From assembly GCA_036172665.1 (NCBI GenBank), contig CM069872.1, positions 54,360,101 through 54,424,100 on the forward strand: a DNA stretch of 64,000 bases, in the 5' to 3' direction. The notes below the pieces were generated by a model, which was not told where the DNA came from, searched no databases, and worked only from the letters and a program-made list of their open reading frames with translations. A program made the position numbers and the translations under genes. The DNA is from Prosopocoilus inquinatus. Taxonomy: Eukaryota; Arthropoda; Insecta; Coleoptera; Lucanidae. Shown piece by piece: positions 26,161-62,408 of this stretch. Numbering within the stretch: position 1 is the stretch's first letter; every line of letters begins with the position of its first letter.

Positions 26161-26496
26161 TAGTCATTTACAAACTGTCCCCCCCCCTCCCCCCCATTAT
26201 TCAAAAACTGTTGCCCTGTTTTTTTTTTATTTTTTACTTTCAGGGTGCCTCCTTCAAGCTCATTTATTTTTATTATTTTTTCCTTAGTGGGCGCTTTTTT
26301 TTTAAATAATCGTTTCGTTTATTCAAGATCCTTGAAGAGTTGCAAAAAGTACAGGGAGATCAAAATTGACGGTCCTGATCCTAGCTTGATGTCAATTTTC
26401 TACTTTCAGACTTACCTCGTTCAACTAAAATTTTTATGATTAAGTTGATTCTTGTCCGATGAAAATTGTAAGTACAAATTTTACTTTTTTTCACTC

Positions 26497-26528
26497 CTGA
26501 AGAAGCTATAAATCTGTAGCGAAACGTT
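26497..26528 (+). ncRNA. Hammerhead-like motif A, copy 1
   Basis: CTGAAGA, one extra A, a hairpin GCTAT/GTAGC, GAAA, then CGTT. ACGU could form a two-base-pair self-complementary stem III with GUU as cleavage triplet. CTC before the core pairs with GAG after it (stem I). The extra base at the foot of helix II departs from the consensus, so it may be degenerate. Confidence 0.4.
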
Positions 26529-26656
26529 GAGCGTGTTTCCATCGTATTTCTGCACGGTTCGAGATTAAAAAAAATTGTACTTAACGTTTTTATGATTTTA
26601 TTAGGATGATTAGGTTGTTTTTAGATCTTTTTGAGTGCTTTTAAGTTGGTAGTGTA

Positions 26657-26691
26657 CTGAAGATGGCAGCTTAGCTGCCGAAATACGTATC
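26657..26691 (+). ncRNA. Hammerhead-like motif B, copy 1
   Basis: CTGAAGA, one extra T, hairpin GGCAGC/GCTGCC with loop TTA, GAAA, then TACGTATC. AUACGUAU is self-complementary and would be a stem III suited to dimers, with AUC as cleavage triplet. Stem I next to the core is weak (three pairs), with a possible distal TTTTA/TAAAA helix. Confidence 0.42.
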
Positions 26692-27119
26692 TATTGATAT
26701 AAAATTATTGTGGGCGTTCAAGCTCATTTTTTATTATTTTTTCCTTAGTGGGCGCTTTTTTTTAATAATCGTTTCGTTTATTCAAGATCCTTGAAGAGTT
26801 GCAAAAAGTACAGGGAGATCAAAATTGACGGTCCCGATCCTAGCATGCTGTTAATTTTTATTTTCAGGGTGCCCCCTTCAAGCTCATTTTTTAAATTATT
26901 TCTTCCTTAGTGGACGCTTTTTTTATAAATAATCGTTTCGTTTATTCAAGATCCTTGAAGAGTTGCAAAAAATACAGGGAGATCAAAATTGACGGTCCTG
27001 ATCCTAGCTTGATGTCAATTTTCTATTTTCAGACTTACCTCGTTCAACTAAAATTTTTATGATTAAGTTGATTTTTGTGCGATGAAAATTGTAAGTACAA
27101 ATTTTACTTTTTTTCACTC

Positions 27120-27151
27120 CTGACGAAGCTATGAATCTATAGCGAAACGTT
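27120..27151 (+). ncRNA. Hammerhead-like motif A, copy 2
   Basis: CTGACGA core variant. Helix II is a perfect five-pair GCTAT/ATAGC. Confidence 0.4.
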
Positions 27152-27280
27152 GAGCGTGTTTCCATCATATTTCTGCACGGTTCGAGATTAAAAAAAAATT
27201 GTACTTAACGTGTTTATGATTTTATTAGGACGATTAGGTTGTTTTTAGATCTATTTGAGTGCTTTTAAGTTGGTAGTGTA

Positions 27281-27315
27281 CTGAAGATGGCAGCTTAGCT
27301 GCCGAAATACGTATC
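27281..27315 (+). ncRNA. Hammerhead-like motif B, copy 2
   Basis: Identical to copy 1 through core, helix II and stem III. Confidence 0.42.
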
Positions 27316-27579
27316 TATTGATATAAAATTATTGTGGGCGTTCAAGCTCATTTTTTATTATTTTTTCCTCAGTGGGCGCTTTTTTTTTAATAATCGTTTC
27401 GTTTATTCAAGATCCTTGAAGAGTTGCAAAAAGTACAGGGAGATCAAAATTGACGGTCCTGATCCTAGCTTGATGTCAATTTTTACTTTCAGACTTACCT
27501 CCTTCAACTCAAATTTTTATGATTAAGTTGATTCTTGTCCGATGAAAATTGTAAGTACAAATTTTACTTTTTTTCACTC

Positions 27580-27611
27580 CTGAAGAAGCTATGAATCTAT
27601 AGCGAAACGTT
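27580..27611 (+). ncRNA. Hammerhead-like motif A, copy 3
   Basis: CTGAAGA core, helix II GCTAT/ATAGC. Confidence 0.4.
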
Positions 27612-27740
27612 GAGCGTGTTTCCATCATATTTCTGCAGGGTTCGAGATTAAAAAAAAATTGTACTTAACGTTTTTATGATTTTATTAGGATGATTAGGTT
27701 GTTTTTAGATCTTTTTGAGTGCTTTTAAGTTTGTAGTGTA

Positions 27741-27775
27741 CTGAAGATGGCAGCTTAGCTGCCGAAATACGTATC
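27741..27775 (+). ncRNA. Hammerhead-like motif B, copy 3
   Basis: Identical core; the base before the upstream strand of stem I differs (TTTGTAGTGTA). Confidence 0.42.
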
Positions 27776-28204
27776 TATTGATATAAAATTATTGTGGGCG
27801 TTCAAGCTCATTTTTTATTATTTTTTCCTTAGTGGACGTTTTTTTTTAAATAATCGTCTCGTTTATTCAAGATCCTTGAAGAGTTGCAAAAAGTACAGGG
27901 AGATCGAAATTGACGGTCCCGATCCTAGCATGCTGTTAATTTTTATTTTCAGGGCGCCCCCTTCAAGCTCATTTTTTAAATTATTTTTTCCTTAGTGGGC
28001 CCTTTTTTTTTAAATAATCGTTTCGTTTATTCAAGATCCTTGAAGAGTTGCAAAAAGTACAGGGAGATCGAAATTGACGGTCCTGATCCTAGCTTGATGT
28101 CAATTTTCTACTTTCAGACTTACCTCGTTCAACTAAAATTTTTATAATTAAGTTGATTCTTGTCCGATGAAAATTGTAAGAACAAATTTTACTTTAATTC
28201 ACTC

Positions 28205-28236
28205 CTGACGAAGCTATGAGTCTATAGCGAAACGTT
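28205..28236 (+). ncRNA. Hammerhead-like motif A, copy 4
   Basis: CTGACGA core; the change in the helix II loop (GAGTCT) leaves the stem intact. Confidence 0.4.
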
Positions 28237-28364
28237 GAGCGTGTTCCCATCATATTTCTGTCCCGTTCGAGATTAAAAAAATTTGTACTTAAATTTCTTA
28301 TGATTTTATTGGCATGATTAGGTTGTTTTTAGGTCTTTTTAAGTGCTTTTAAGTTGGTAGTGTA

Positions 28365-28399
28365 CTGAAGATGGCAGCTTAGCTGCCGAAATACGTATC
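28365..28399 (+). ncRNA. Hammerhead-like motif B, copy 4
   Basis: Identical to copy 1 across all 35 nt. Confidence 0.42.
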
Positions 28400-28662
28400 T
28401 ATTGATATAAAATTATTGTGGGCGTTCAAGCTCATTTTTTATTATTTTTTCCTTAGTGGGCGCTTTTTTTTAATAATCGTTTCGTTTATTCAAGATCCTT
28501 GAAGAGTTGCAAAAAGTACAGGGAGATCAAAATTGACGGTCCTGATCCTAGCTTGATGTCAATTTTTACTTTCAGACTTACCTCCTTCAACTCAAATTTT
28601 TATGATTAAGTTGATTCTTGTCCGATGAAAATTGTAAGTACAAATTTTACTTTTTTTCACTC

Positions 28663-28694
28663 CTGAAGAAGCTATGAATCTATAGCGAAACGTT
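28663..28694 (+). ncRNA. Hammerhead-like motif A, copy 5
   Basis: Core as copy 3. Its unit is truncated before motif B, at about 28805. Confidence 0.4.
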
Positions 28695-29100
28695 GAGCGT
28701 GTTTCCATCATATTTCTGCACGGTTCGAGATTAAAAAAAAATTGTACTTAACGTTTTTATGATTTTATTAGGATGATTAGGTTGTTTTTAGATCTTTTTG
28801 AGTGCTTCCTTTTTTCCTTAGTGGATGCTTTTTTTTAATAATCTTTTTGTTTATTCAGTATCCTTGAAGAGTTGCAAAAAGTACAGGGAGATCCAAATTG
28901 ACGGTCCTGATCCTAGCTTGATGTTCTTTTTTATTTTCAGGTTGCCCCCTTCAAGCTCATTTTTTGATTATTTCTTCCTTAGTGTGCGCTTTTTTTTAAA
29001 TAACCGTTTCATTTATTCGTCAGATCTTTTCAGTTGCAAGCAAAAAGTACAGGGAGATTGAAATTGATTGTCCTGATCCTCGCTTGATGTTAATTTTTAC

Positions 29101-31929: not shown

Positions 31930-34900
31930 ATGCGACGACGAGAGCGAACGCTTTTTGGTCCGTCAGAAGAGAGGGATGTTTTCGAGAGTGCACTCCTCTC
32001 TCTCTCGCTCTCACTCGTTCGTTTTGTTGTCCGTCAATGCGTTCTGTTACAAGCATTTCATGTGCTTTAAAAATTACTTAATTCATTTCTTTTAATGTCA
32101 CCTAACCTCAGTTTTTGCTTTTTTTTTTAAATTAAGAAAAAATAACAATCGCCTCGCGCTTTTTGGCCCGTCAGAAGAGAGGGATGTTTTCGAGAGTGCT
32201 CTCTCTCTCTCTCTCTCTCCGCCAATGTGTTTTGTTACAACCGCAGCATTTCATGGTGCTTTAAAAATTACTTAATTCATTTCATTTAATGTCACCTAAC
32301 CTCAGTTTTGCTTTTTTTTTTAATTAAGAAAAAATAACAATCGCCTCGCGCTTTTTGGCCCGTCAGAAGAGAGGGATGTTTTCGAGAGTGCACTCCTCTC
32401 TCTCTCTCTCTCCGCCAAAGTGTTCTGTTACAACCGCAGCATTTCATGGTGCTTTAGAAATTACTTAATTCATATCATTTAATGTCACCTAACCTCAGTT
32501 TTGCTTTTTTTTTAAATTAAGAAAAAATAACAATCGCCTCGCGCTTTTTGGCCCGTCAGAAGAGAGGGATGTTTTCGAGAGTGCTCTCTCTCTCTCTCTC
32601 TCTCCGCCAATGTGTTTTGTTACAACCGCAGCATTTCATGGTGCTTTAAAAATTACTTAACTCATTTCATTTAATGTCACCTAACCTCAGTTTTACTATT
32701 TTTTTTTTTAATTAAGAAAAAATAACAATCGCCTCGCGCTTTTTGGCCCGTCAGAAGAGAGGGATGTTTTCGAGAGTGCTCTCTCTCTCTCTCCGCCAAT
32801 GTGTTCTTTTACAACCGCAGCATTTCATGCTGCTTTAAAAATTACTTAATTCATTTCTTTTAATGTCACCTAACCTCAGTTTTGCTTTTTTTTTAAATTA
32901 AGAAAAAAGTAACAATCGCCTCGCGCTTTTGGCCCGTCAGAAGAGAGGGATGTTTTCGAGAGTGCACTCCTCTCTCTCTCGCTCTCACTCGTTCGTTTTG
33001 TTGTCCGTCAATGCGTTCTGTTACAAGCATTTCATGTGCTTTAAAAATTACTTAATTAATTTCTTTTAATGTCACCTAACCTCAATTTTGCTTTTTTTTT
33101 TAAATTAAGAAAAAATAACAATCGCCTCGCGCTTTTTGGCCCGTCAGAAGAGAGGGATGTTTTCGAGAGTGCTCTCTCTCTCTCTCTCGCTCTCACTCGT
33201 TCGTTTTGTTGTCCGTCAATGCGTTCTGTTACAAGCATTTTATGTGCTTTAAAAATTACTTAATTAATTTCTTTTAATGTCACCTAACCTCAATTTTGCT
33301 TTTTTTTTTAAATTAAGAAAAAATAACAATCGCCTCGCGCTTTTTGGCCCGTCAGAAGAGAGGGATGTTTTCGAGAGTGCACTCCTCTCTCTCTCGCTCT
33401 CACTCGTTCGTTTTGTTGTCCGTCAATGCGTTCTGTTACAAGCATTTCATGTGCTTTAAAAATTACTTAATTAATTTCTTTTAATGTCACCTAACCTCAG
33501 TTTTACTATTTTTTTTTTTTAATTAAGAAAAAATAACAATCGCCTCGCGCTTTTTGGCCCGTCAGAAGAGAGGGATGTTTTCGAGAGTGCTCTCTCTCTC
33601 TCTCCGCCAATGTGTTCTTTTACAACCGCAGCATTTCATGGTGCTTTAAAAATTACTTAACTCATTTCATTTAATGTCACCTAACCTCAGTTTTACTATT
33701 TTTTTTTTTAATTAAGAAAAAATAACAATCGCCTCGCGCTTTTTGGCCCGTCAGAAGAGAGGGATGTTTTCGAGAGTGCTCTCTCTCTCTCTCCGCCAAT
33801 GTGTTCTTTTACAACCGCAGCATTTCATGCTGCTTTAAAAATTACTTAATTCATTTCTTTTAATGTCACCTAACCTCAGTTTTGCTTTTTTTTTAAATTA
33901 AGAAAAAAGTAACAATCGCCTCGCGCTTTTGGCCCGTCAGAAGAGAGGGATGTTTTCGAGAGTGCACTCCTCTCTCTCTCGCTCTCACTCGTTCGTTTTG
34001 TTGTCCGTCAATGCGTTCTGTTACAAGCATTTCATGTGCTTTAAAAATTACTTAATTAATTTCTTTTAATGTCACCTAACCTCAATTTTGCTTTTTTTTT
34101 TAAATTAAGAAAAAATAACAATCGCCTCGCGCTTTTTGGCCCGTCAGAAGAGAGGGATGTTTTCGAGAGTGCACTCCTCTCTCTCTCGCTCTCACTCGTT
34201 CGTTTTGTTGTCCGTCAATGCGTTCTGTTACAAGCATTTCATGTGCTTTAAAAATTACTTAATTAATTTCTTTTAATGTCACCTAACCTCAATTTTGCTT
34301 TTTTTTTTAAATTAAGAAAAAATAACAATCGCCTCGCGCTTTTTGGCCCGTCAGAAGAGAGGGATGTTTTCGAGAGTGCTCTCTCTCTCTCTCTCGCTCT
34401 CACTCGTTCGTTTTGTTGTCCGTCAATGCGTTCTGTTACAAGCATTTTATGTGCTTTAAAAATTACTTAATTCATTTCTTTTAATGTCACCTAACCTCAA
34501 TTTTGCTTTTTTTTTAAATTAAGAAAAAATAACAATCGCCTCGCGCTTTTTGGCCCGTCAGAAGAGAGGGATGTTTTCGAGAGTGCTCTCTCTCTCTCTC
34601 CGCCAATGTGTTCTTTTACAACCGCAGCATTTCATGCTGCTATAAAAATTACTTAATTCATTTCATTTAATGTCACCTAACCTCAGTTTTGCTTTTTTTT
34701 AAATTAAGAAAAAATAACAATCGCCTCGCGCTTTTTGGCCCGTCAGAAGAGAGGGATGTTTTCGAGAGTGCTCTCTCTCTCTCTCCGCCAATGTGTTCTT
34801 TTACAACCGCAGCATTTCATGCTGCTATAAAAATTACTTAATTCATTTCATTTAATGTCACCTAACCTCAGTTTTGCTTTTTTTTAAATTAAGAAAAAAT

Positions 34901-35690
34901 AACAATCGCCTCGCGCTTTTTGGCCCGTCAGAAGAGAGGGATGTTTTCGAGAGTGCTCTCTCTCTCTCTCCGCCAATGTGTTCTTTTACAACCGCAGCAT
35001 TTCATGCTGCTATAAAAATTACTTAATTCATTTCATTTAATGTCACCTAACCTCAGTTTTGCTTTTTTTTAAATTAAGAAAAAATAACAATCGCCTCGCG
35101 CTTTTTGGCCCGTCAGAAGAGAGGGATGTTTTCGAGAGTGCTCTCTCTCTCTCTCTCGCTCTCACTCGTTCGTTTTGTTGTCCGTCAATGCGTTCTGTTA
35201 CAAGCATTTCATGTGCTTTAAAAATTACTTAATTCATTTCTTTTAATGTCACCTAACCTCAATTTTGCTTTTTTTTTTAAATTAAGAAAAAATAACAATC
35301 GCCTCGCGCTTTTTGGCCCGTCAGAAGAGAGGGATGTTTTCGAGAGTGCTCTCTCTCTCTCTCCGCCAATGTGTTCTTTTACAACCGCAGCATTTCATGC
35401 TGCTATAAAAATTACTTAATTCATTTCATTTAATGTCACCTAACCTCAGTTTTGCTTTTTTTTAAATTAAGAAAAAATAACAATCGCCTCGCGCTTTTTG
35501 GCCCGTCAGAAGAGAGGGATGTTTTCGAGAGTGCTCTCTCCCTCTCTCTCTCTCCGCCAAAGTGTTCTGTTACAACCGCAGCATTTCATAGTGCTTTAGA
35601 AATTACTTAATTCATTTCATTTAATGTCACCTAACCTCAGTTTTGCTTTTTTTTTTAAATTAAGAAAAAATAACAATCGCCCGCGCTTGT
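31930..35690. repeat. CT-tract satellite, two unit variants, about 19 copies
   Basis: Units of about 180-210 bp share CGCCTCGCGCTTTTTGGCC, GGGATGTTTTCGAGAGTGC, a (CT)n tract and TGTCACCTAACCTCA. The short variant has CCGCCAATGTGTT and ACAACCGCAGC. The long variant has CACTCGTTCGTTTTGTTGTC. Blocks of five units are themselves duplicated (about 32.57-33.5 and 33.57-34.5 kb). Confidence 0.92.
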
Positions 35691-36290: not shown

Positions 36291-36422
36291 ATTGACTACA
36301 AGGGTCGTTCAATATTCAAAATGATTAGGACGTTCGGTTGGTTATTTTTGCGCGGGGGTTTAAAAATTTCGGAACTTGCGTTGCAAGTCGATTTTGATTG
36401 CAATGCAATCTCTAAACGGTTA

Positions 36423-36449
36423 TTTCGCCCCCGTATGGGGCCTCATCGG
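36423..36449 (-). ncRNA. Degenerate hammerhead-like motif
   Basis: Minus strand CCGATGA (one change from CUGAUGA), helix II GCCCC/GGGGC, then GAAA. Probably inactive. Confidence 0.3.
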
Positions 36450-36577
36450 CAAACATTCTGAGCTTATCTACGGGGGTCGTTCAATATAATCAAAATAATT
36501 GGACGCTCGAAGGTAGTGTTTGTATTTTGCACAGGGAATTTCCGAAGGGTTTGCTTTTGATCGCAATGAAATCCTTC

Positions 36578-36613
36578 GGATGGCTATTTCGCCCCTGTTT
36601 GGGGCCTCCTCAG
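36578..36613 (-). ncRNA. Hammerhead-like motif
   Basis: Minus strand CTGAGGA, an extra G, helix II GCCCC/GGGGC, GAAA, then TAGCCATC with AU/AU stem III and AUC triplet. TTG before the core pairs with CGA after it, with one wobble. Confidence 0.38.
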
Positions 36614-37060
36614 CAACCGTTCGGAATTTATCTGCAGGAGTTGTTGGATATTCAAAATAATTGGTAGTGATGTATTTTGCGCAGGAGAAGGATACGCAAG
36701 TTGCTTTTTTTGATTGCAGTGAACCCCTTGATGCCTCATCAGCAAACTCTCAAGGCTTATTATTTATCTACAGGGGTCGTTCAATATTCCAAAATAATTT
36801 TGGATTAGATGCTTGGTTGTTATGTGTTTTGGGTAGGTAATTGCTGAAGGGTTTGCAAGTCGCTTTTTTGATTGCAATGAAATCGCTAGGGCCTCATCCG
36901 CAAACGTTCAAAGCTTTATTTATATTTATCATCTACAGGGGTCGTTCAATATTTCGAAATAATTTTAGACGCTTGGTGGTAATATATTTTGGATTTGTAA
37001 GAGTTTTCGTGCTATTGATTGCTGCAATTGAACCTTCGGATCTCGATAGCTAATCTGCTC

Positions 37061-38180
37061 CGATCCCTTTCTGTCCCCCTATTTGGGACTTCACCATAAA
37101 AATAAGTGTTTTTTTTTTTTGAAAAAAGCATTTTTTAAATTCAATTTTAATAATAAAACAAAAACAACAGTGAGACACTTTTTTCTTTGATAGTCGTGTG
37201 AAACGCAATAAAAAAACGGCAGAAAATAAAGTTTCTAAAGAAATTATAATTGTTTAATTTATGTGAAAAATGGTAAACAATTGAAAATTAAAAAAAAAAA
37301 AAACTTTTTGGCAGTCCAGAAAAAGCAAATTAAAAATGCCGAACCTCAATTATTGCATTATTAAAAAAAAAAAAAAAAGACGGAACAGTAATTCGAAATT
37401 TACAACAAAAAAAAAGAACAACACACGAAGAAAGACAAATCACAATCGTGATACAAAAGCGACAAAAACAAAAGACGATCGCGACGATTTGCAGTTGATG
37501 ACAATTCAAAACTCTTGGGAGATATTCTCGATGATCGATTTAAAAAAAAAAGATCGCATTATGTTCGAGAAAAAAAACAAAACGTTAAATAAATTGAAAA
37601 AGAAAAAGAAACACAAGAAACAAAACAAAACGATACTTTTCTATTTAACAGTCCCCCTGTTTTTTAATCATGCCTTCTTTATAAGTCTTCAGTTGGTCGA
37701 GTTTAAGTTCTCATTATTATTATTAAGCGCCAAATATGGATAATATGTTTTTTACGACGAAATAAATTTTCTTTTTGAACAAAAAAATCGAATTAATTCG
37801 AAACTTGATGAATTGGCAGTACCCCTCCCCCCCTTCCGGATTATTCCGGAAAGGATTACGTAATAAAAACATATTAAAAATAATTTTCTATGCAAACCTA
37901 AACTCTTATTGATGACGTCAAAATATGCGATTCCGATCTCTATTTGTTAGAAATAGGTTAGAAATATTTGACGACGGTAGGTGATTTTTGACAGGTCGAC
38001 AAAGAGACAATTGACGAATAGAACCGACTCACTTGGAGAAAATTGATTTCCCTTTTCTTGAATTCAAAGAGTTGATGATTCTCGTCTTACACTTCAATTT
38101 TTTTTCTCACTCTTGTTTGCACTAAAACGCATTCGTTCTCGCTCTACGTCGCGCATTCTTCTCGACCATCAACCAGCGAC
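37061..38180. other. A-rich stretch and short unique sequence
   Basis: 37100-37640 is A-rich low complexity that gives a Lys/Asn-rich 135-codon frame I do not believe. 37800-38180 has no recognised feature beyond leading into the next array. Confidence 0.5.
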
Positions 38181-43100: not shown

Positions 43101-43690
43101 AATTTCCTTAAAATTTGTAATATTTTCAGTTGGTTTTAGTTTAGTTGGTTTGGTTTGACCTTGAAACGTTTTTAATGTTTCACATTTGAACGATTAAAAG
43201 CGCGGTTGGGTTCATTTGGGCTTAGTTCAGTATGGTCGGGTTCGCTTAGTTTTTCTTTTGTTTAGTTAGGTTAGGTTCACTTAATTTCGTTTTAGTTAAT
43301 TTTTAAAAATATTTACATTTTCTATGATTTTAATTTTTTTATTTTTATTTTTTAAGATTATTATCTGTAATTCTTTTCTTGGGTTGGTTTCGCTTAGGTC
43401 GACTTCAGTTGATTTGGGTTGGCCTCGAATTGAGGTGTTCGTATTTTCTCTTTTTTTTTGTTGCCGTTTAATCGTTTTTCGTTTTTTCATCGACCGGAGT
43501 TTTCGCTTGTTTTTCCGGTTAAAATGTTTCTCTCGTCCAAAAAAAAAATCAATATTCGTTTGTTTTTTTTTTGAGACAATTTTTTTCTCACAAATTATCA
43601 ATTTTATGTCAATTCAATTATTATTTTTTTTTTCGAATAAATTGGTCGGTAGCTGTTTTGTAATCTAAATTGAATTTCCATCCGTTTTTA
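43101..43690. repeat. GGTTGGGTT-type repeat, inverted relative to 30.6-31.0 kb
   Basis: GGGTTGGTTTCGCTTAGGTCG and GGGTTGGCCTCGAA are the reverse complement of phrases near 30650 and 30940. The rest is T-rich. Confidence 0.55.
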
Positions 43691-46640
43691 TTGCTGTTTT
43701 TTTTTAATATTGACGTTTTTTGATCAGGCGATTATTTGATCGTCTTTTATTTTCATTGAATCGTCAACCTTTTTTGTTTTTTTTTTAATGTTGACACGAT
43801 TTTTGGTCAGGTGATTATTTGATCGTCTTTTGTTTTCATGTTTTCACCTTTTTTTTGCTGTTTTTTTTAATATTGACGCTTCTTGATCAGGCGATTATTT
43901 GATCGTCTTTTATTTTCATTGAATCGTCAACCTTTTTTGTTTTTTTTTAATGTTGACACGATTTTTGGTCAGGTGATTATTTGATCGTCTTTTGTTTTCA
44001 TGTTTTCACCTTTTTTTTGCTGTTTTTTTTAATATTGACGCTTCTTGATCAGGCGATTATTTGATCGTCTTTTATTTTCATTGAATCGTCAACCTTTTTT
44101 GTTTTTTTTTTAATGTTGACACGATTTTTGGTCAGGTGATTATTTGATCGTCTTTTGTTTTCATGTTTTCACATTTTTTTGCTGTTTTTTTTAATATTGA
44201 CGCTTCTTGATCAGGCGATTATTTGATCGTCTTTTATTTTCATTGAATCGTCAACCTTTTTTGTTTTTTTTTTAATGTTGACACGATTTTTGGTCAAGTG
44301 ATTATTTGATCGTCTTTTGTTTTCATGCTTTCACCTTTTTTTTGCTGTTTTTTTTAATATTGACGCTTCTTGATCAGGCGATTATTTGATCGTGTTTTGT
44401 TTGTTTGTTTTCATCGAATCGTCAACCTTTTTTGTTTTTTTTTTAATGTTGACACGATTTTTGGTCAGGTGATTATTTGATCGTCTTTTGTTTTCATGTT
44501 TTCACATTTTTTTGCTGTTTTTTTTAATATTGACGCTTCTTGATCAGGCGATTATTTGATCGTCTTTTATTTTCATTGAATCGTCAACCTTTTTTGTTTT
44601 TTTTTTAATGTTGACACGATTTTTGGTCAAGTGATTATTTGATCGTCTTTTGTTTTCATGCTTTCACCTTTTTTTTGCTGTTTTTTTTAATATTGACGCT
44701 TCTTGATCAGGCGATTATTTGATCGTGTTTTGTTTGTTTGTTTTCATCGAATCGTCAACCTTTTTTGTTTTTTTTTTAATGTTGACACGATTTTTGGTCA
44801 GGTGATTATTTGATCGTCTTTTGTTTTCATGTTTTCACATTTTTTTGCTGTTTTTTTTAATATTGACGCTTCTTGATCAGGCGATTATTTGATCGTCTTT
44901 TATTTTCATTGAATCGTCAACCTTTTTTGTTTTTTTTTTAATGTTGACACGATTTTTGGTCAAGTGATTATTTGATCGTCTTTTGTTTTCATGCTTTCAC
45001 CTTTTTTTTGCTGTTTTTTTTAATATTGACGCTTCTTGATCAGGCGATTATTTGATCGTGTTTTGTTTGTTTGTTTTCATCGAATCGTCAACCTATTTTT
45101 GTTTTTTTTTCTTTAATGTTGACTATTTTTGGTCAGGTGATTATTTGATCGTCTTTTGATTTCATGTTTTCACCTTTTTTGTTGCTGTTGGAAGTTTTTT
45201 GATCAGATGATCATTTGATCGTCTTTTGTTTTCACTGAATCGTCAACCTTTTTTGTTTTTTTTAATATTGACGTTTTTTGATTAATCATTTGATCGTCTT
45301 TTATTTTCATTGAATCGTCAAACTTTTTGTTTTTTTTTATGTTAACACGATTTTTGGTCAGGTGATCGTCAGGTGATCGTCTTTTGTTTTCATGTTTTCA
45401 CCTTTTTTTTGCTGTTTTTTTTTTAATATTGACGCTTCTTGATCAGGCGATTATTTGATCGTCTTTTATTTTCATTGAATCGTCAACCTTTTTTGTTTTT
45501 TTTTAATGTTGACACGATTTTTGGTCAGGTGATTATTTGATCGTCTTATGTTTTCATGTTTTCACATTTTTTTTTTGCTGTTTTTTTTTAATATTGACGT
45601 TTCTTGATCAGGCGATTATTTGATCGTCTTTTGTTTGTTTGTTTTCATCGAATCGTCAACCTTTTTTTGTTTTTTTTTTTCTTTAATGTTGACTATTTTT
45701 GGTCAGGTGATTATTTGATCGTCTTTTGATTTCATGTTTTCACCTTTTTTGTTGCTGTTGGAAGTTTTTTGATCAGATGATCATTTGATCGTCTTTTGTT
45801 TTCATTGAATCGTCAATCCTTTTGTTTTTTTTTTAATATTGACGTTTTTTGATCAGGCGATCATTTGATCGTCTTTTATTTTCATTGAATCGTCAACCTT
45901 TTTTGTTTTTTTTTTAATGTTGACACGATTTTTGGTCAGGTGATTATTTGATCGTCTTTTGTTTTCATGTTTTCACCTTTTTTTTGCTGTTTTTTTTAAT
46001 ATTGACGCTTCTTGATCAGGCGATTATTTGATCGTGTTTTGTTTGTTTGTTTTCATCGAATCGTCAACCTTTTTTTGTTTTTTTTTAATGTTGACAGGAT
46101 TTTTGGTCAGGTGATTATTTGATCGTCTTTTGTTTTCATGTTTTCACCTTTTTTTTGCTGTTTTTTTTTAATATTGACGTTTCTTAATCAGGCGATTATT
46201 TGATCGTCTTTTGTTTGTTTGTTTTCATCGAATCGTCAACCTTTTTTTGTTTTTTTTTTCTTTAATGTTGACTATTTTTGGTCAGGTAATTATTTGATCG
46301 TCTTTTGATTTCATGTTTTCACGTTTTTTGTTGCTGTTGGAAGTTTTTTGATCAGATGATCACTTGATGGTCTTTTGTTTTCATTGAATCGTCAATCTTT
46401 TTTGTTTTTTTTAATATTGATGTTTTTTGATCATTTGATCGTCTTTTATTTTCATTGAATCGTCAACCTTTTTTGTTTTTTTTTTTAATGTTGACACGAT
46501 TTTTGGTCAGGTGATTATTTGATCGTCTTATGTTTTCATTGAATCGTCGACCTTTTTTGTGTGTGTTTTTTTTTTTAATATTGACGATTCTTGATCAGGT
46601 GATTATTTGATCGTCTTTTGTTTTCACATAGATATAAAAT
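43691..46640 (+). repeat. Dimeric T-rich satellite, period about 162 bp
   Basis: Two related half-units of about 80 bp alternate. One has CATTGAATCGTCAACC and GTTGACACGATTTTTGGTCAG; the other has CATGTTTTCACC and ATTGACGCTTCTTGATCAGG. Both contain ATTTGATCGTCTTTTGTTTTC or its TTATT variant. About seventeen dimers, with some half-units lost near 45.2-45.4 kb. Confidence 0.9.
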
Positions 46641-51731: not shown

Positions 51732-53908
51732 ATGATGGCTACTAGACTCATCAAACGACTGGTACGTAATAATTTCGATTATCTCGATTTATGTAAGTCT
51801 CATGCAAGCAGGACGCTTTAATTTAGTTAAGGGCTTTTTGGAAAGAAGATCTTGTGATTTTCCACGCCGCTGGAAAATGTCGCCGCGCTCGCAGCTAGCT
51901 CAAGTTCCTTGTACTCTACGAAAAATCCGCCGATTCTATGCGCACCACACCGCGAAAATCCATTAAAAAAAAAGTGAAGAAGTACTTAGGCCCCCCTCGA
52001 CGAGTTACATAACTTCACGCTCGTTTTAAGGTTATTTAGAATCACATGCTCCGTTAATTTCTGCGTTCCAGGCGAGCTCGCGGATTTCCGGCGCCCGTTT
52101 CTACAGCAGTGGCGAGGTGAAGAAGTGCACTATAATTCCGGGGGATGGGATTGGGCCTGAAATATCAGCTGCCGTGCAGAAGATATTCGAAGCCGCCAAA
52201 GTCCCCATCGAATGGGAGAGCGTGGATGTAACGCCCGTCAGGGTAAGTCAAAGTCACGGCCCCCAGACACACCCAAGCAAGAATAAAATTAATTTAAGGG
52301 ACCCGATGGAAAATTCGGCATACCCCAAGCTGCCATCGATTCTGTGAACAAGAACAAAGTTGGATTAAAGGGACCTTTGATGACGCCCGTTGGGAAAGGA
52401 CACCGATCTTTGAATCTCGCTCTGCGGAAGGAATTTAATTTGTATGCTAACGTCAGGCCATGTCGGAGTTTAGAAGGGTATGTTGCATTTAGTCGATTGT
52501 TGCCTAATTAGTTAATCAGTATTCGCATAGAGTGATCAAAAAAGCATTTCAAACTTTAATGAAAACCAAAACAGATGACTTTAGGCCCGGCTTCGTTTCA
52601 TCTCAATTTAAATTTCATCTTCAGTTTATTCCCAAAAGTCGAATTGAGATGGAAAACCTAGGCCTTATTTGCACTTTTATACACTTTGAAGAGCTATAAA
52701 ATTTCAGTTATTCATTCACCTTCAAATAAAAAAGATAAATATTTACATTTCTCACTTGCACTCTTTTGAAATGTACACATTTTTTCATCGCCGTGCAAAC
52801 ATTTACTTTTCACGGCGGCACACATTAATGACGAACAATTAATTAATTCTCCTGCAGTTACAAGACGTTATACGATCACGTGGACGTGGTAACCATAAGA
52901 GAGAACACGGAGGGTGAATACTCGGGTATCGAGCACGAAATCGTCGAAGGCGTCGTGCAAAGCATAAAGCTGATTACGGAGGACGCATCCCGGAGAGTCG
53001 CGGAGTTCGCGTTTCAGTACACCAAAGAAAATAACAGGCGTAAAGTCACCGCGGTGCACAAGGCCAACATCATGTAAATATCTCGTTGGATTGTCGCAAG
53101 CAAGTTCCCCCCTAAAATCTGTCATTACAGGAGAATGTCAGACGGTTTGTTCTTGAGGTGCTGCCGTGAAATGGCCGAGAAGTACCCGGAGGTTAAGTTT
53201 GAAGAAAAATACTTGGACACCGTCTGCTTGAACATGGTGCAGGATCCCACACAGTACGACGTGCTGGTCATGCCTAATTTATATGGTGATATATTGTCGG
53301 ATATGTGTGCGGGGCTTGTCGGAGGCCTTGGCTTAACACCGTCTGGTAACATTGGTTTAAATGGGGCACTATTCGAATCTGTAAGTACTTTTCTTACTAT
53401 TCTATTATTATTAGTCCCCATGAACGTTATTTGGCAAATAAATTGAATTTTATGAATTGTGATTCGTCAAATAAATTTATTAGGAAGTTGGAAATATCAG
53501 GGCTTTTGATAGATAATTTGATAAGAATTTCCAATAATTTAATCACATCTTGAACTTTGAATTTTATTTTTTTTTCACTATCGCTATCTTCCCATTGATA
53601 AGTTTTAAATTGCTGACGTGTGTACACACACAGAATGACTCATTATTTACGCTGTTTGTATATTTTAGGTTCACGGAACAGCACCGGATATCGCTGGTCA
53701 AGATAAAGCAAATCCCACAGCTCTGCTTTTATCGGCCGTAATGATGCTGAAGTATATGGGGCTTAACGATCACGCAAGAGTCATCGAAAACGCGTGCTAC
53801 GACACGATTAAAGACGGTAAATTCCTGACCGGTGACCTGGGGGGCAAGGCGAAATGCTCGGAGTTTACGGCCGAAATCTGCAGCAAGATATCGTCTGCTT
53901 CGAAGTGA
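51732..53908 (+). CDS. Idh3a: NAD-dependent isocitrate dehydrogenase subunit alpha, mitochondrial
   Basis: The product is the catalytic alpha subunit of mitochondrial NAD-isocitrate dehydrogenase, which converts isocitrate to 2-oxoglutarate in the TCA cycle (family knowledge). The six coding exons are 51732-51761, 52072-52242, 52299-52477, 52858-53073, 53131-53380 and 53669-53908. All introns are GT-AG, phases agree, and two introns are only 56-57 nt. They encode 361 aa, close to the usual 360-375. Residues 1-25 are basic and Ser/Arg rich, as in a matrix targeting peptide. [11 protein letters not shown] is the N-terminal fold motif. Isocitrate-binding Arg110 and Arg120 (NVRP) and Arg141 (TIREN) are present, as are Tyr148, Lys195 (HKANIM) and the metal-site aspartates Asp228, Asp252 and Asp256, with the family signature starting NLYGDILSD at 248. 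Two adjacent ATGs begin the frame and I chose the first. The gene looks intact. The beta and gamma subunits are not in the window. Confidence 0.97.
52581..52676. repeat. Small palindromic MITE in Idh3a intron 3
   Basis: Starts TAGGCCCGG, ends CCTAGGCCT, with inverted TCTCAATT blocks inside. It resembles the two TAGG...CCATCACAG elements near 14.04 and 14.45 kb. Confidence 0.5.
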
Positions 53909-55314: not shown

Positions 55315-58300
55315 ATGAGCGGTGTGCGATGCAGTCTGACCACGGCAGGGAAGTTTGTCTTCGCTGTTCGAAGTACAAAGCTCCAACATGGTAAATGCCT
55401 TTCAATTTTTACATTTAAAACCGTACGTGTCAGTTAGTTGCCAATTATCATGATAAGAATGTGATAAGAATGTAACGACTCAAGCTATGTTTATCATTAT
55501 CATAATCATAATAATAATAACAATAACAATGGAATTTTACATATTAGTGATAAGTGACTTGTTTTTTCTTGCGTTTAGAAATAACTAATGCATAAAAAGC
55601 GAGTGATTTCGAAAGAACACCAGACATAATGAGTTGTGTTAACTTTGACCTAATTCACACGTCTTACGTGACCTTAAACTTTTGAATTAACGAGCCGTCT
55701 GCTTTCTAGGCATCCTGTCAGCGACGTACAACAAATCCTTCACGGCTTCACCTAAATGCCTGTCGACGAGCTTGATTTTATTGAAGGCGAGCGGCTCCGG
55801 CGATCCCACCGACGGCACTCCTCACACTCCCAAGGACGTTTCAAGCAATACCAGCGGGAGCGGCACGGCCGGGCCGGGGGGCGGGGGCAAAAACAAAAAC
55901 ACCCTGTCGTGTCCGAAATGCGGCGATCCTTGCACGCATGTCGAAACCTTCGTCAGCTCGACCAGGTTCGTCAAGTGCGAGAAGTGCCATCATTTCTTCG
56001 TGGTTTTGAGCGAGGTCGACAGCAAGAAGAAGGAGGGGGTCGAGACCAAGAGCGGCTTCTTCAGGAAACCTCCGCCGCCCCCCAAGAAAATCTTCGATTA
56101 TTTGAATAAGCACGTGGTCGGGCAGGAACATGCGAAAAAGGTTTTCAAAATCCAAGAGCCAAGAGTGAATAATATAATTAATAATTCGATTGCAGGTGTT
56201 ATCGGTGGCTGTGTACAATCATTACAAAAGAATTTTCAATAATACTCCGGCTCAGAGCAACAGCTCGCGCCAAGACATGGCCGTGATGGAGCAAGGCCCC
56301 CATCACAACTTCACACACAGAGGTAAGGAGTGCGCGTTGCTCTGTTTCATTTTCATCCGGCTTATAAACATGATGTGATATTTTTTTACGTGACGTGTAA
56401 CATGCGCAGATCTCCTGCATATAACAGGGCTGGGCCACGGCAATACGATGGGGTTCACGATTCAAAACTCGGCCAGCGACAACCCAAACAGGTCATCAAC
56501 GGCCGTCGGGTCTGAGATCCTCGATCGTACGTCGCACGATCTAAAACTAGAGAAGAGTAATATATTATTATTAGGGCCTACCGGGTCAGGTAAGCCAAAG
56601 CAAATCGTTTCTTTCTCTTCTTCCCCCCTTCAGCTTTTCGTTTTTGCTTCGCCCCCGCAGGTAAAACGTTACTGGCCCAAACCATAGCTCAATGTTTAGA
56701 CGTGCCGTTCGCCATATGCGACTGCACAACGTTAACACAAGCGGGATATGTAGGTGAAGACATCGAGAGCGTTATAGGCAAGCTCCTTCAGGATGCGGGG
56801 TACAGTGTGGAGAGGGCGCAGATCGGAATCGTTTTCCTGGACGAGGTGGATAAAATCGGTGCCGTGCCCGGCATACATCAGCTGAGGGATGTCGGGGGTA
56901 AGAAATGTTTTTTTTTTGCGTTTTCGATTAGTTTGGCAGGAAGGCGAAAGTTTTTCGGGCTCCTTTCCAAGAAGCTATTTTAGTCGGGCGTGTACACGCG
57001 CGTTAGAATTAAATTTAAACGATAGTAAATATTTACTGCGCTGTTTGTAAAGCTTTGATTTTATACGGTTTGTTGATTTCAGTTTTTTTTTTTTTTTTTT
57101 TTAATTTAAACAGGTTACATAAAATAGTAGCAAATAATTAGTAATACAAAAGTATTTTGCCAAATTTGGTAAAAACAAAAGAAAAGTTACAATGCCTTTT
57201 AAAGCACTCAGAAACTTCTCGACGAAAAAAATTATATTTTTGTCGCCTGTAGTATAGGCAATCATGCGGACTGTGGAGTTCATCGGTTTGCCTATCTAGA
57301 AGGCGCTCAACTCATTTATGTATTAGAGATATTAAAAAAAATGTACGCAATAAATTACTATTTACGTTAATTAATGAAAAAAATCTTTGCATTAATTAAT
57401 GAAAAAAAAAAAAAAATTAAATGAACCAATCATTATTATTTTTTATTAAGTGTCACAGTCTTTAGATAACAAACAATAATCATTATGCCGATTAATCACA
57501 ATGCTTTTTCGTTTTAAAACTGTTAATATTTCATGTGTTCAAGAACCGCCGCGTTGAATTGGAAGACGTACCTCGGTATTCCAATTAAAAATAATTGCAG
57601 CTCACTTCACCAATTTTTTGACGTTCTTTCATTTGTTTTGTTTTTGTCGGTGTCGTTGGATTGGTTACGTTCCAATTTTTAAGGTAGAGTGTAATTTGGG
57701 CGTGTAATCACGTCTCTCTCACTCACGATTGTTAACGTATGTTGCGTCTCGTTCGTCCGTTCTAAGAAGCCTTGTGTTTACTTCGTTGCCACGGCAACGG
57801 GCGAACACTTTCGCATCGTTTTCGGCAGTAGGATGAGAAAAGTTCGCCCGTTGCCATGACAACCATGTAAACACAAGGCTTCTTGGAACGGATGAACGAG
57901 ACGTCTGTCAATAATCATGAATGAGAAAGAAGCGATTATACCGCCCTGTTTGTGCTCTACCTTATAAAAGTGAACGACGTTTATTTTTTCAATTGTCTCT
58001 TCAACCTGTTACTTTTCTTTTGTTTTGGTTTTCCCCCCTCATTTCTGTTTTAATTATTTCGCTGAATTTCATGGCAGAATCTTTTCAGTTCTTCAAGCCG
58101 ACGTTTCTATTATGTTCTGTTTTCGCTTCGTTTCTCCGAATTTCAACGGCGTTCAGTTGTTTTAAAACATAATTACCGTGTTTTTCAAGCCTATCTCAAG
58201 TTATGGCCAACTTCATACGTGTGACCATCGTGTTTCTCAAGTCTATCTCAAGCCATGGCCGACTTCAAACAACATGTAAATTTTTGAACGCACTTTACGT

Positions 58301-61110
58301 TTAAAAATTTAAATTTACAGGCGAAGGCGTACAGCAGGGAATGTTAAAAATGCTGGAGGGGACCGTTGTCAACGTACCTGAAAGGAATTCACCGCGCAAG
58401 CTCCGGGGAGAGACCATCCAAGTGGACACGACCAACATCCTTTTCGTTGCAAGCGGTGCCTACAACGGACTGGACCGGCTGATTGCACGAAGGAACAACG
58501 CAAATGTATTTCATGCAAAGGAGATGTGACGCCCCCTTCGTTCTTAATTGTTTTCTTTTCTTGCACAGTACTTCGGGTTTGGTGCTCCGGCCTCAGCAAG
58601 CGAAGGCCGAAGGGCCGCATCACAGCAGGCCTTCAGCCAGAGCGACTTGTCAGCCGAAGAAGAGAACCGAGAGAGAGACCAAGCGCTCAAGCAGGTGCAA
58701 GCGAGGGACCTAATCGATTTTGGAATGATACCTGTGAGTGCTTTCAAATATTTTTTATTTACTTGTTTTTGAGCCGAAGCATTGCAGGAATTTGTGGGCA
58801 GATTTCCAGTATTAGTTCCGTTCCACAGTCTCGATAAGAACATGTTAGTGCGCATTCTGACCGAGCCGAGGAACGCTTTAATACCACAGTATCAAAGACT
58901 GCTCGCCATGGACCAGTGCGAACTCACTTTCACCCCCGAGGCATTGAACGCCATTGCGGTGATGGCGATGGACAGGAAGACCGGGGCCAGGGGCCTTCGA
59001 GCAATTCTGGTAGGAGACAATTTTTATTTTAATTCGGTTAAAGTCCACCCCTCTCCCTTTCTATAAATTTGGGATTCCCCTATTGACTGAGAAAAGGCTC
59101 AATAACGTCTGTTTTAATATAAAAGATAATTTTGAAAAGCTGGAAATTCGATTTGCATGCAATATTTTTGTTTTATTTTTAATTATTTCTAAGTTCTGCA
59201 TTAAAGCAGCTGACTTTCTTGAATTTATTAAGTTTTGTGCATTTGGGAAAAGTACAAGTTTGTCTTTTGAAGATAGAAAAAAAGCGAAAAATTGTTTTTA
59301 GTGTCAAAAAATCGAATCCTGAATAAGTCTGTCGCATTATTTAATTAATAGGAATTATGTACTTACTGTTTTCACTGCAGGCAATCACACAGACGGCTGT
59401 GCCAATTGGGTTGCCTATACCAAGGCCTCTTAATTTTTTTTCTGCTGAAAACTTCAATTTATTTTTTTTTTTAAACAGACAGTCTTGTTATTAAAATCGA
59501 TTGTCTACAATTTTTAAAGGCAATTTAATAAATTCCTTTGTTAAAACAGATGAAAATTAACTAAATAATCTTGAATCGAAACGCCAGAAGGTCACAAAAA
59601 ATTTTTGTTTCCATTCAAGTTTATTTATTTCTTTTAGTCACAAATATCATGGATAACCCGCTAGTATTTTGAAAATAAACTTTCGTGTGTCTATAATTTC
59701 GTTTGTGAAATCAGGAAGGATTGGAAAACCGTTTAAAACGCTCAAAAATTCGACTAGAAAAAATATTTTTGCCGCCTGTAGTGTAGGCAACCATGCGGAC
59801 GGTCGGGTTCATCGGTTTGCCTGTCTAAAAGGCGATCTGTTGAAAGAAAACATACTTTTCACTTTGGGGCAATCACACAAACAGTGGTGTTCATAGGGTT
59901 GCGTATACCAAGGCTTCTTATGTATTTATTTTTTTGAAAACTTCAATTTATAATTTTTAAACAGAGTTTTGTTAGTAAAATCGATTGTCTGTAATTTTTA
60001 AAGATAATTCAATAATTTCCTTTGTTAAGGCAGATGAAAATTAAATTTGGGTGTCTATAATTTCGTTTTTGAAATCAGGAAGAATTGGAAAACCGTTTAA
60101 AACACTCAAAAATTCGACGAAGAGAAATATTCTTACCGCCTGTAGTGTAGGCAACCATGCGCACCGCCGAGTTTATCGGTTTGCCTATCTAAAAGGCGAT
60201 CTGTTGAAGAAAGAAAACTTACTTTTCACTGTGGGCAATCACGCAAACAGTTGTGTTCATAGGGTTGCCTATACCAAGGCTTCTTGTTTATTTATTTTTT
60301 AAAAACTTCAATTTATTATTTTTAAACAGAGAGTTTTGTTAATAAAATCGATTGTCTGTAATTTTTAAAGGTAATGCAATGATTTCCTTTGTTAAGGCAG
60401 ATGAAAATTAAATTTGGGTGTCTATAATTTCGTTTTTGAAATCAGGAAGAATTGGAAATCCGTTTAAAACGCTCAAAAATTTGATGACAAAAATTTTCGT
60501 GCCGCCTGTAGGGTAGGCAACTGTGCGTGCCGCCGAGTTCGCGATTTGCCTATACCTCAAGGCGTTTTGTGGAAAAAATGTATTTTTAGACAAACTGCCA
60601 GCTTACTAAAATTAATTGTTTATAATTTTCAAACGTGTATCAATAACTTTCTCCATTTTACAAGTAAAAATCTAAAAATTAATTAAATTATCGAATTTTT
60701 GTACGCCTTTTACATTTCTGATTTGAAAGCGGGAAGAAACGGCAAACTCTTTAAATGCGTAAAACTTAGGAAACGCAGTCAAATGTTAAACTTTTTGACG
60801 AGGAAAGAGGAAAAGTCGGGGGGAAAACCTGGAAACGCCAAGAGGAAAGTTTGAATGAAAATAAAATGATCGTTTCCAAGACCAAATTTGTAGGGAGGGG
60901 TGGAAAAACGGGGGCAAAAATAATTTCTTTGCGACTGTTTAGGAGGCGATGCTGTTGGAGCCGATGTTCGAAATCCCCGGATCCGGAATCTCCGGGGTGC
61001 ACGTCACCGAGGAGTACGTCAAGGGCACAACGGGGCCCATGTACGTGAAGAGCGCCACGGCGGAGACGACAACGGACGACGAAGAGCTGAAAACCTCCAT
61101 CCGGATATAG
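55315..61110 (+). CDS. ClpX: ATP-dependent Clp protease ATP-binding subunit ClpX, mitochondrial
   Basis: This is a AAA+ unfoldase that feeds matrix substrates to ClpP and acts as a chaperone (family knowledge). The nine exons are 55315-55390, 55710-56140, 56196-56322, 56410-56589, 56661-56897, 58321-58505, 58569-58733, 58788-59009 and 60943-61110. All junctions are GT-AG with matching phases, giving 596 aa against roughly 600-630 in animal orthologues. A basic N-terminus suits mitochondrial import. The C4 zinc-binding domain has Cys93, 96, 115 and 118. Walker A GPTGSGKT is at 267-274 and is split by intron 4. Pore loop GYVG is at 300-303 and Walker B with Asp332/Glu333 follows. The sensor region [12 protein letters not shown] and the GARGLRAIL segment of the C-terminal small domain are present. 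Introns 5 (1423 nt) and 8 (1933 nt) carry transposon-derived repeats, while the other introns are 54-319 nt. An upstream in-frame ATG at 55156 is possible, but 55315 gives the expected targeting peptide. Confidence 0.97.
56898..57169 (+). other. ClpX intron 5, unremarkable left part
   Basis: AT-rich intronic sequence with a long poly-T run (57083-57102). No exon or element recognised. Confidence 0.6.
57170..57310 (+). repeat. Copy of ClpX intron-8 repeat in intron 5
   Basis: Contains the diagnostic phrases for 'gccTGTAGTaTAGGCAA', 'catgcgga' and 'catcggtttgcctatct' that recur in intron 8 of the same gene. Degenerate single copy. Confidence 0.6.
57785..57798. promoter_or_regulatory. X-box (RFX) motif, left arm of MITE
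   Basis: GTTGCCACGGCAAC fits the RFX consensus of two inverted GTTGCC half sites. It lies inside the ClpX intron 5 MITE. Confidence 0.45.
57850..57863. promoter_or_regulatory. X-box (RFX) motif, right arm of MITE
   Basis: GTTGCCATGACAAC is close to the canonical ciliary-gene X-box. It is the partner of the 57785 site. Confidence 0.45.
57965..58320 (+). other. ClpX intron 5, right part
   Basis: Contains a short direct repeat (CAAGTCTATCTCAAG with ATGGCC, near 58188 and 58236). No exon with matching phase was found between the GGTAAG donor at 56898 and the acceptor at 58320. Confidence 0.5.
59380..60560 (+). repeat. Tandem repeat of about 360 bp in ClpX intron 8
   Basis: Three fuller units begin near 59690, 60055 and 60425, with a partial one near 59380. 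Each carries TTTCGTTTxTGAAATCAGGA, a GCCGCCTGTAG block, a GGTTTGCCTxTCTAAAAGG block and a CCTATACCAAGGC block. The rest of the intron (59010-59380, 60560-60942) shows nothing I recognise. Confidence 0.8.
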
Positions 61111-61506
61111 CAAGACAATTCGCGGGCACGTTTTGATTTATGTGAGAAACAACAACTGACATCATCAAATACAAACTTTGGTAATAAATCTGTTTTAATT
61201 TGTTTTTAAATTAAATAATCTCAAAAGAGCTGTTAAAACTATTACTACCGCAACTAGACTATTTAATAACCAACACGTTTTATTTTATTTTTATTTTATT
61301 TTATTTTATTTAAAAGAGTTAGGTTGCGTAGTCTTCCTTGACTCTTTTTTTTTCTTTCTTTTTTGTTAATTTCGAACTTGCGAATAATAAATATTTTTAC
61401 CGACGTCGTTTGCTTGATCATTGTATGTGTGTATATAGACGATGAAATGTAAATAATACAGAAATTTTTGTTTTGTTTTGTAAAAAAGAAAAAAAAATAT
61501 AGGGGG
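61111..61506. other. Convergent 3' region of ClpX and the minus-strand gene
   Basis: Holds the ClpX 3' UTR and a TTTTATTTTATT repeat (61270-61310) that supplies AATAAA on the opposite strand. The two stop codons are about 400 bp apart. Confidence 0.55.
61183..61188 (+). terminator. Poly(A) signal of the ClpX gene
   Basis: AATAAA lies 73 nt after the ClpX stop, followed by a T-rich tract. A second candidate is near 61387. The gene is convergent with the minus-strand gene ending at 61508. Confidence 0.6.
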
Positions 61507-61512
61507 TTTATT
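61507..61512 (-). terminator. Poly(A) signal overlapping a stop codon
   Basis: On the minus strand the stop TAA of the 123-aa gene lies inside an AATAAA hexamer. A T-rich tract follows within 15 nt. If used, the 3' UTR would be only about 20 nt. Further AATAAA hexamers on this strand lie near 61270-61310. Confidence 0.4.
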
Positions 61513-62201
61513 GTTGCGTGTTGTAAAATGCCAGCCCGACTTCTCTCAGTTCCTTGTCTTCTTGCAGGAAATCGTTCATGTAGAGAGTGCGCAGCTTTTG
61601 TTGTCGTACCTAAAAGATTTTTTTCGCACTTAAAAAAAAATAAATAAATAAATAAATGAAATGATTAAAGAACAGATAAAATAGCGACATCTTACTATCG
61701 CTTTTTGACCTGACATTGCAGTAGGATAGACAAATTGAAGCGGGATTTGCTCCTAATAAGTTCCCCATGCAAGGCGGCCATGCTTGCTGTCAAAGCATAA
61801 TGAAAATTTTAGAAAAATTTTGTGCAAATCGTTTTTGATTGCAGCGAGAACCTCGAGCAGCCTCTGGACAGATGTTTCAGCCCTGCTTGGGGCTTCTTCA
61901 GCAATCAAAAACGATTTGCACAAAATTTTTCTGAAATGATTAAAAGTGAGTACGTGCCTCGGTGTTTAATTGTTGTAAGTGAAAGAGCTCTCGCCTCATA
62001 ACGACGACACTGGGGTGGACACCGAGGGGTGCCATCGTGCTCCTGTCGAGGTGTGTCGGATCTACTTTCACCGTCGCTTTATTTCTGCACAAGACAATAA
62101 ATAGGTTTGATTTTAATGACACATTCTTTTTCTTCTTACAGCAAGCACAGCTTTGCTATGTAATTCTTATTGCTTTTCTGGTCGTCCCTTTTGTCTGCCA
62201 T
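61508..62201 (-). CDS. Small four-exon gene, CFAP141 (C1orf189)-like candidate
   Basis: In minus order the exons are 62201-62140, 62084-61954, 61786-61710 and 61609-61508. They total 372 nt and encode 123 aa. Phases 2, 1 and 0 match at all three introns (55, 167 and 100 nt). Donors are GTAAGA, GTACTC (weak) and GTCAAA, and every acceptor ends in AG. The start is MADKRDDQKS. The last exon, VRQQKLRTLYMNDF through GLAFYNTQQ, aligns without gaps to the C-terminus of human CFAP141 as I recall it: VRQ, then Leu, Leu, Gln, Glu-Leu, and Gly-x-Ala-Phe-Tyr at the same spacing. CFAP141 is an axonemal microtubule-inner protein of motile cilia, so a sperm or chordotonal role would be expected. The first two exons are not recognised. 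The gene structure is well supported by phase agreement; the family call is moderate. A spliced non-coding RNA is the alternative but is unlikely. Confidence 0.7.
61811..61932 (-). repeat. Foldback element in intron 2 of the CFAP141-like gene
   Basis: Arms 61811-61842 and 61901-61932 are a perfect 32-bp inverted repeat around a 58-nt apical region. The element occupies 122 of the 167 nt of the intron, starting 21 nt from the donor and ending 24 nt from the acceptor. Its apical sequence matches units of the 36.3-37.06 kb array, so it is a dispersed copy of that family. Confidence 0.85.
61867..61901 (-). ncRNA. Hammerhead ribozyme-like motif, intronic, sense
   Basis: Minus-strand order is: CTGAAGA (CUGANGA core), a 16-nt helix II hairpin with AGCCC paired to GGGCT, GAAA, a two-base-pair stem III (AC with GU around ATCT), then a GTC cleavage triplet. 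The next three bases (CAG) can pair with TTG just before CTGAAGA to start stem I (one wobble). Every conserved core base of the hammerhead family is present. Stem III is very short, as in retroelement-borne hammerheads. Activity is not shown. Confidence 0.55.
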
Positions 62202-62408
62202 CGAGTCCTTCTACTCAAAAATTGACACTTGACAATGACACTTATGTACTTAAATTAATTTTTTTTTTTTAAAGCAAAGCCGAAAGATTAATTCAATACA
62301 ATTTATTACACAATATAATACAAATAACTTACTAAATACATAATATCTATGTGACAAAATATGATGAAGGATTTGTTTCAATGCATATTATTAAGCGTTT
62401 GATTGAGA

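Follow-up and report, generated by a model that had tools for sequence, protein, structure and literature searches.

The locus considered here raises the question of whether a hammerhead-type ribozyme core lodged in a short intron cuts the transcript that carries it, or is what a repeat has left behind in a host gene. It lies on the minus strand of a 64-kb window (the whole stretch of DNA analysed, from the beetle Prosopocoilus inquinatus), where a sequence-only reading had taken it for a sense-strand ribozyme able to cut the pre-mRNA in competition with splicing. We regard the element as probably a lone copy, degenerate and rearranged, of a repeat that carries a hammerhead (retrozyme-like or Penelope-like minimal type I); in RNA it would form a hairpin, with cleavage slow or absent. 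What appears to be new is an unusual fold-back form of a known kind of hammerhead, of which one copy is known, from this 64-kb window. The interest of the locus is that a hammerhead-bearing repeat would have turned fold-back in a short host-gene intron, its tandem relative elsewhere in the window serving as reference. Inserts of this kind are considered the raw material for the domestication of intronic ribozymes in amniotes (PMC3088659; PMC6155905). Were the fold-back form multi-copy, its arms would offer a retroelement a simple means of silencing its own ribozyme.

A palindrome in an intron of a CFAP141-like gene

The gene model on the minus strand consists of an exon at 61954..62035, taken from an in-frame ATG and possibly longer upstream, a 167-nt GT-AG intron (61787..61953), a further exon (61710..61786), a 100-nt intron and a final coding exon with a stop codon (61507..61609, the end being approximate), with joins at 61954/61786 and 61710/61609 giving one frame of 86 aa. 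The unspliced frame reaches a TAA stop at intron positions 12-14, such that the gene model requires the 167-nt intron. The Pfam CFAP141 family (PF15104) matches the product in the part encoded by the final exon, over residues 53-83 only, with 24.5 bits against a curated cut-off of 27 (E=2.6e-5). A sequence search of the PDB with the product returned two sequences, CFAP141 (E=0.66 over residues 46-83) and one labelled FliJ (E=0.9), while a homologue search returned one protein (E=0.02; identity 60%, query coverage 41%) that has the C-terminal motif in common with the product. At the level of sequence the CFAP141 identification is good for the last exon, with the two exons that flank the 167-nt intron being predicted from the reading frame and the splice signals. 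The plus-strand open reading frames at 55691-61110 lie tail to tail with this gene and are presumably, as judged by eye, a mitochondrial ClpX gene; the open reading frame at 53078-53446 we take, also by eye, to be isocitrate-dehydrogenase-like.

The element (61811..61932, minus strand) occupies 122 of the 167 nt of the intron, and its position within a same-strand intron, as originally proposed, is borne out by the GT-AG boundaries, the frame kept on both sides and the Pfam match downstream. It is bounded by a 5' arm at 61901..61932 and a 3' arm at 61811..61842 that are complementary at 32/32 bp, in agreement with the perfect 32-bp inverted repeat first described. This is the longest perfect inverted repeat in the window, the runner-up measuring 27 bp (arms less than 400 nt apart), and the longest seen after shuffling the window 20 times (order-2 Markov) was 18 bp (spacing up to 260 nt). 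A repeat finder extends the arms to 55 nt at 84% identity. Inside the perfect arms the next 18 nt agree at 10/18 positions, with transitions accounting for six of the eight differences (shuffle p ~0.02), such that part of the stretch at 61843..61866 is an imperfect inverted copy (10/18) of the helix II side.

The sequence-only reading had the inverted repeat bracketing the core. A complete minus-strand core is indeed present, but its C3 coincides with the last base on the inner side of the 5' arm; arm and core therefore overlap, and the description as bracketing is slightly inexact. On the other side the 3' arm begins 24 nt past C17, the intervening stretch (61843..61866) holding the CAG strand of stem I. 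No target-site duplication was identified at the element, and BLAST found no second full copy of the element region in the 64-kb window. The minus-strand 13-mer TTTAATCATTTCA occurs at 61657-61669 and at 61932-61944, in the two neighbouring introns; in the first intron it continues into CAG at the edge of the element and resembles a 3' splice site.

Layout of the core

Read on the minus strand the core runs in the order CTGAAGA, AGCCC-CAAGCA-GGGCT, GAA, ACATCTGT, C, CAG. CTGAAGA (61895..61901) supplies C3 to A9 and is followed by the 5-bp helix II AGCCC/GGGCT with its 6-nt loop CAAGCA (61879..61894), by G12 A13 A14 (61876..61878) and by the 8-nt stem III segment ACATCTGT (61868..61875), which extends from A15.1 to U16.1 and forms 2-3 bp. 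C17 is at 61867, and hammerhead numbering would place cleavage between 61867 and 61866. The 3' strand of stem I, CAG (61864..61866), pairs with TTG at 61902-61904 over 3 bp only. The CTGAAGA heptamer, the five-pair helix II and the GTC triplet (61869-61867) of the original description were all recovered at these positions.

Core criteria for hammerheads, as given in the part of PMC3088659 available, are C3 U4 G5 A6 N7 G8 A9, G12 A13 A14, A15.1, U16.1 and H17, and every one of these positions is occupied accordingly in the target. The core-adjacent pairs 10.1-11.1 (A-U), 1.1-2.1 (C-G) and 15.1-16.1 (A-U) are likewise present. The stems themselves are weak: stem III counts 3 bp in the target, against 2 bp in its relative u4 (see below), and the 2-nt loop that the third pair would close reduces it to 2 bp in a monomer. 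No loop-loop contacts were evident by eye in the target.

Relatives of the core in the window

Two tandem arrays in the window carry motifs of the same type. The first, on the minus strand at 36300..37110 (GC 41%), is a degenerate array of 147-163-bp units (five anchors) homologous to the core and 3' arm of the target, in which the motif is kept in two of five units and lost in three. The motif of unit u4 lies at 36574..36618 with C3 at 36613, and that of unit u5 at 36410..36454 with a change of U4 to C. The second array, on the plus strand at 26492..28699, has two alternating motifs, five of type A with ACGT and four of type B, whose stem III segment is the 8-nt palindrome ATACGTAT, and start-to-start spacings alternating between ~460 and 624.

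A strict descriptor combining the core criteria with short stems found two loci in the window, the target and 36613 (minus strand), against an expectation of 0.06 per window (150 order-1 Markov simulations); the 8-nt stem III segment was absent from every simulated hit. Allowing one extra base before helix II gave 11 loci against 0.065 expected (200 simulations), namely nine in the plus-strand array at 26.5-28.7 kb, 36613 (minus strand) and the target; u5 was missed by the descriptors because of its U4 to C change. The strict and looser descriptors replaced a first scan without the extra base, which had found four loci against 0.83 expected (40 simulations) and had missed most of the motifs.

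Rfam gave a different picture: the 64-kb window had no matches at gathering thresholds, and 61500-62250 had none to a hammerhead family at E≤10, such that the covariance match by which the ribozyme was to be checked did not materialise. Permissive E-values over the motif groups of both arrays likewise gave no hammerhead match. With Rfam silent on 12/12 such motifs found in the window, it follows that sequences of this kind easily escape annotation.

Covariation among the other motifs was assessed with the pairing set beforehand by core numbering, using seven of the 11 non-target motifs (three of five type A, two of four type B, u4 and u5), which make six distinct rows. All 57 of 57 cells were paired, and two-sided changes occurred at six of ten pairs (two of three in stem I, four of five in stem II and none in stem III), a number reached in 10 of 500 shuffles. 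The covariation score was 0.767 compared with 0.259 in shuffles, none of 500 being as high. The rows are mostly related copies, four of them from two repeat types, and these changes thus represent few independent events.

Two covariance models were then applied to the window, both with rough E-values. R1, built from the same seven motifs with the target omitted, matched the target at 61862..61906 with 38.9 bits (E=3.3e-9); the 11 better-scoring matches were array motifs, and the next match outside the three motif groups scored 13.3 bits (E=0.17). As R1 includes u4 and u5, which are repeat relatives of the target, it is not a test of the fold alone. R2, built only from the nine motifs of the plus-strand array, is such a test, with a modest score: the target had 15.7 bits (E=0.0047) and u5 17.1 bits (E=0.0015), these being the sole other matches below E=0.1, and u4 was not listed in the R2 search of the window. 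Types A and B of the plus-strand array were aligned with guidance from the model, and that alignment leans to the R1 structure. The designation hammerhead-like is therefore supported through descent and covariation, as far as sequence comparison reaches, and is not supported by Rfam. Pattern searches of viral contigs for the core, related cores and the arm, and of genome contigs for the arm, gave no matches; the collections are viral and prokaryotic and these zero counts say little.

Origin of the element

The core and 3' arm of the target (91 nt) align to the array at 36.3-37.1 kb with a score of 47. The best chunk of the window clear of that array scores 31, and 312 chunks (those of the array included and the target's own excluded) have a mean of 22.0 (sd 3.8). 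None of 2000 dinucleotide shuffles of the 91 nt reached 47, the highest being 43. A blastn comparison of the intron with 35.65-37.4 kb aligned 105 columns with 62% identity (E=5e-6 for a search of this segment).

Comparing the intron with the array piece by piece, with 1000 letter shuffles for each piece, separated the parts of the element. C3 to C17 match the array directly, as does the 3' arm (GCAATCAAAA.CGA.TTGCA), with none of the 1000 shuffles scoring as high in either case. The 5' arm matches in reverse complement only (0/1000 shuffles as high, compared with 455/1000 in direct orientation). No array homology was found for the 24 nt between C17 and the 3' arm (599/1000 shuffles as high) or for the intron flanks (159 and 120 of 1000). 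From these matches the repeat family accounts for the core and 3' arm, while the 5' arm copies the 3' arm in reverse. Their joint falls at TTGC, and in four aligned array units TTGC also immediately precedes the core (GTTTGC, GGTTGC), the simplest reading of which would be a joint by microhomology.

The course of events may be pictured as a snap-back or template switch, in reverse transcription or replication, that would have generated the long palindrome, with insertion or rearrangement then leaving it in the intron. In the pre-mRNA the 32-bp hairpin would most likely form co-transcriptionally, sequestering C3 together with the stem I strand, and the intron would be spliced out with the hairpin looped. 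Self-cleavage would be slow or absent; any residual activity would depend on a dimer, on a protein partner, or on the interval in which the 3' arm is still untranscribed.

Folding of the RNA and alternative explanations

In the intron RNA the hairpin has a predicted energy of -61.2 kcal/mol compared with -46.0 when the three-stem hammerhead fold is imposed; without stem I being required, helices II and III with an open core give -53.9 kcal/mol, a cost of only 7 kcal/mol. A stable three-stem fold is thus not predicted for the target in its own RNA, this fold lying 17 kcal/mol above the ensemble in the intron. The motifs of u4 and type B folded alone are equally unfavourable (P 2e-12 and 1e-10), and fold energetics consequently do not separate active from inactive members of the group. 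For this reason the fold probabilities were rejected as proof that the target is inactive.

An active intronic hammerhead, in which the nascent RNA would be cut after C17 in competition with splicing of the CFAP141-like pre-mRNA, is very unlikely. In its favour, the target has all the core positions, and all three of the core-adjacent pairs, that PMC3088659 lists, and conserved intronic hammerheads have been described in amniote genes (PMC6155905; PMC3088659). Against it, C3 and the stem I strand lie inside the perfect arm, stem I has 3 bp and stem III 2-3 bp, no loop-loop contact is evident by eye, and the three-stem fold has a probability of ~1e-12 in the intron and of 3e-8 to 7e-9 in nascent RNA that stops 8 to 20 nt past C17, short of the 3' arm. 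The proposal that the ribozyme cuts the pre-mRNA in competition with splicing is accordingly not supported. The companion suggestion that the hairpin draws the splice sites together is plausible as a model. A single intronic copy with no tandem partner, and with arms hiding C3, leads us to expect ordinary splicing of a looped intron with little or no cleavage. Minimal hammerheads of Penelope elements are described, in the parts of the sources available, as being without helix III and tertiary contacts and perhaps dimeric, with one cleaving only with the protein of the element (PMC7761336; PMC6155905; PMC11167929). It is highly improbable that hammerhead-bearing repeats acquired perfect inverted arms as a dispersed fold-back family, with those arms shutting down the ribozyme once the transcript is complete and confining its activity to nascent RNA, dimers or association with a protein partner; in this intron the element would then be a kinetic switch that decides whether the pre-mRNA is cut or spliced.

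Three further explanations set the ribozyme aside or give it another setting. It is unlikely that the element belongs to a mobile, MITE-like fold-back family carrying a hammerhead, with many dispersed copies and with arms that selection for mobility has preserved without mismatch; the contrast between arms perfect over 32 bp and an inner part alike at just 10/18 favours such a family, as does the existence of another palindrome with 27-bp arms, but the window has no second full copy and that other palindrome is not clearly of the same family (R2 9.8 bits, E=0.8). That the hairpin is a source of small RNAs (endo-siRNA or miRNA-like) from either strand, the core being mere ancestry, is improbable. 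The plus-strand intron RNA folds still better than the minus strand (-75.8 kcal/mol), probably because the inner mismatches become G-U pairs, and cmscan gave matches below gathering to MIR4245 (34.9 of 74 bits, E=0.00025) and mir-315 (23.7 of 63 bits, E=0.13). Any long stem can yield such miRNA matches, however, and the hairpin is without a conserved mature segment; with scores so far under gathering, these matches were not counted as a sign of miRNA function. An unrelated fold-back DNA with a loop that resembles a hammerhead by chance would agree with the silence of Rfam on hammerheads, yet the descriptor expectation of 0.06 per window, the R1 and R2 matches and the piecewise array homology all tell against it, making it extremely unlikely.

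Comparison with known systems

By the features compared, the target would belong with the minimal type I hammerhead motifs of animal retroelements, while failing the Rfam and stable-fold criteria. For Penelope-like elements and Terminons, minimal type I hammerheads were reportedly described by Cervera and De la Pena in 2014 and by Lunse in 2017. With these motifs, as characterised in the parts of the sources available, the target shares the core CUGANGA/GAA, helix II, a very short stem III, the absence of evident tertiary contacts (by eye in the target) and dispersal in noncoding DNA (PMC7761336; PAc of Anolis, PMC11167929). It differs from the Penelope type in the long palindrome of arms that sequesters the core, and no Penelope reverse transcriptase or pLTR has been shown nearby; no reverse-transcriptase open reading frame was recognised by eye among the 33 of at least 110 aa in the window. 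Its A10.1-U11.1 pair, moreover, lacks the extra base that the alignment places in the other motifs of the window. In a Penelope element of Anolis the start codon begins at stem II, with C3 and G8 before it, as far as the available part of the source goes (PMC11167929). By analogy this arrangement would fit CTGAAGATGG here and may be a published parallel to the extra base before helix II, the likeness being one of arrangement.

Animal retrozymes consist of 150-450-bp units that are repeated in tandem and carry type I hammerheads, and the array at 36.3-37.1 kb shares with the non-LTR retrozymes described in the available part of the source a short tandem repeat (147-163 bp) with originally one motif per unit (PMC7229834). 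The target, by contrast, is single and not tandem, and the motif of the array has mostly decayed. The amniote hammerheads of RECK and C10orf118 are, like the target, found in introns and probably derived from mobile repeats; they show conservation between species and in vitro cleavage, whereas the target is known by sequence alone and has weak stems (PMC3088659; PMC6155905). The available parts of work on Terminons (PMC6431247) and permuted hammerheads (PMC10085705) leave the reading of the target unchanged. No hammerhead inside a fold-back or in a CFAP141 intron was found in the literature searched, of which coverage was partial.

Repeats of other kinds also occur in the window. Further satellite-like tandem arrays with units of ~162-333 bp lie at 21009-22769, 32819-35688, 43685-46626 and elsewhere, and a second palindromic element at 23676-23851 has 27-bp perfect arms, a 122-nt spacer and CTAAAT/ATTTAG near its two ends.
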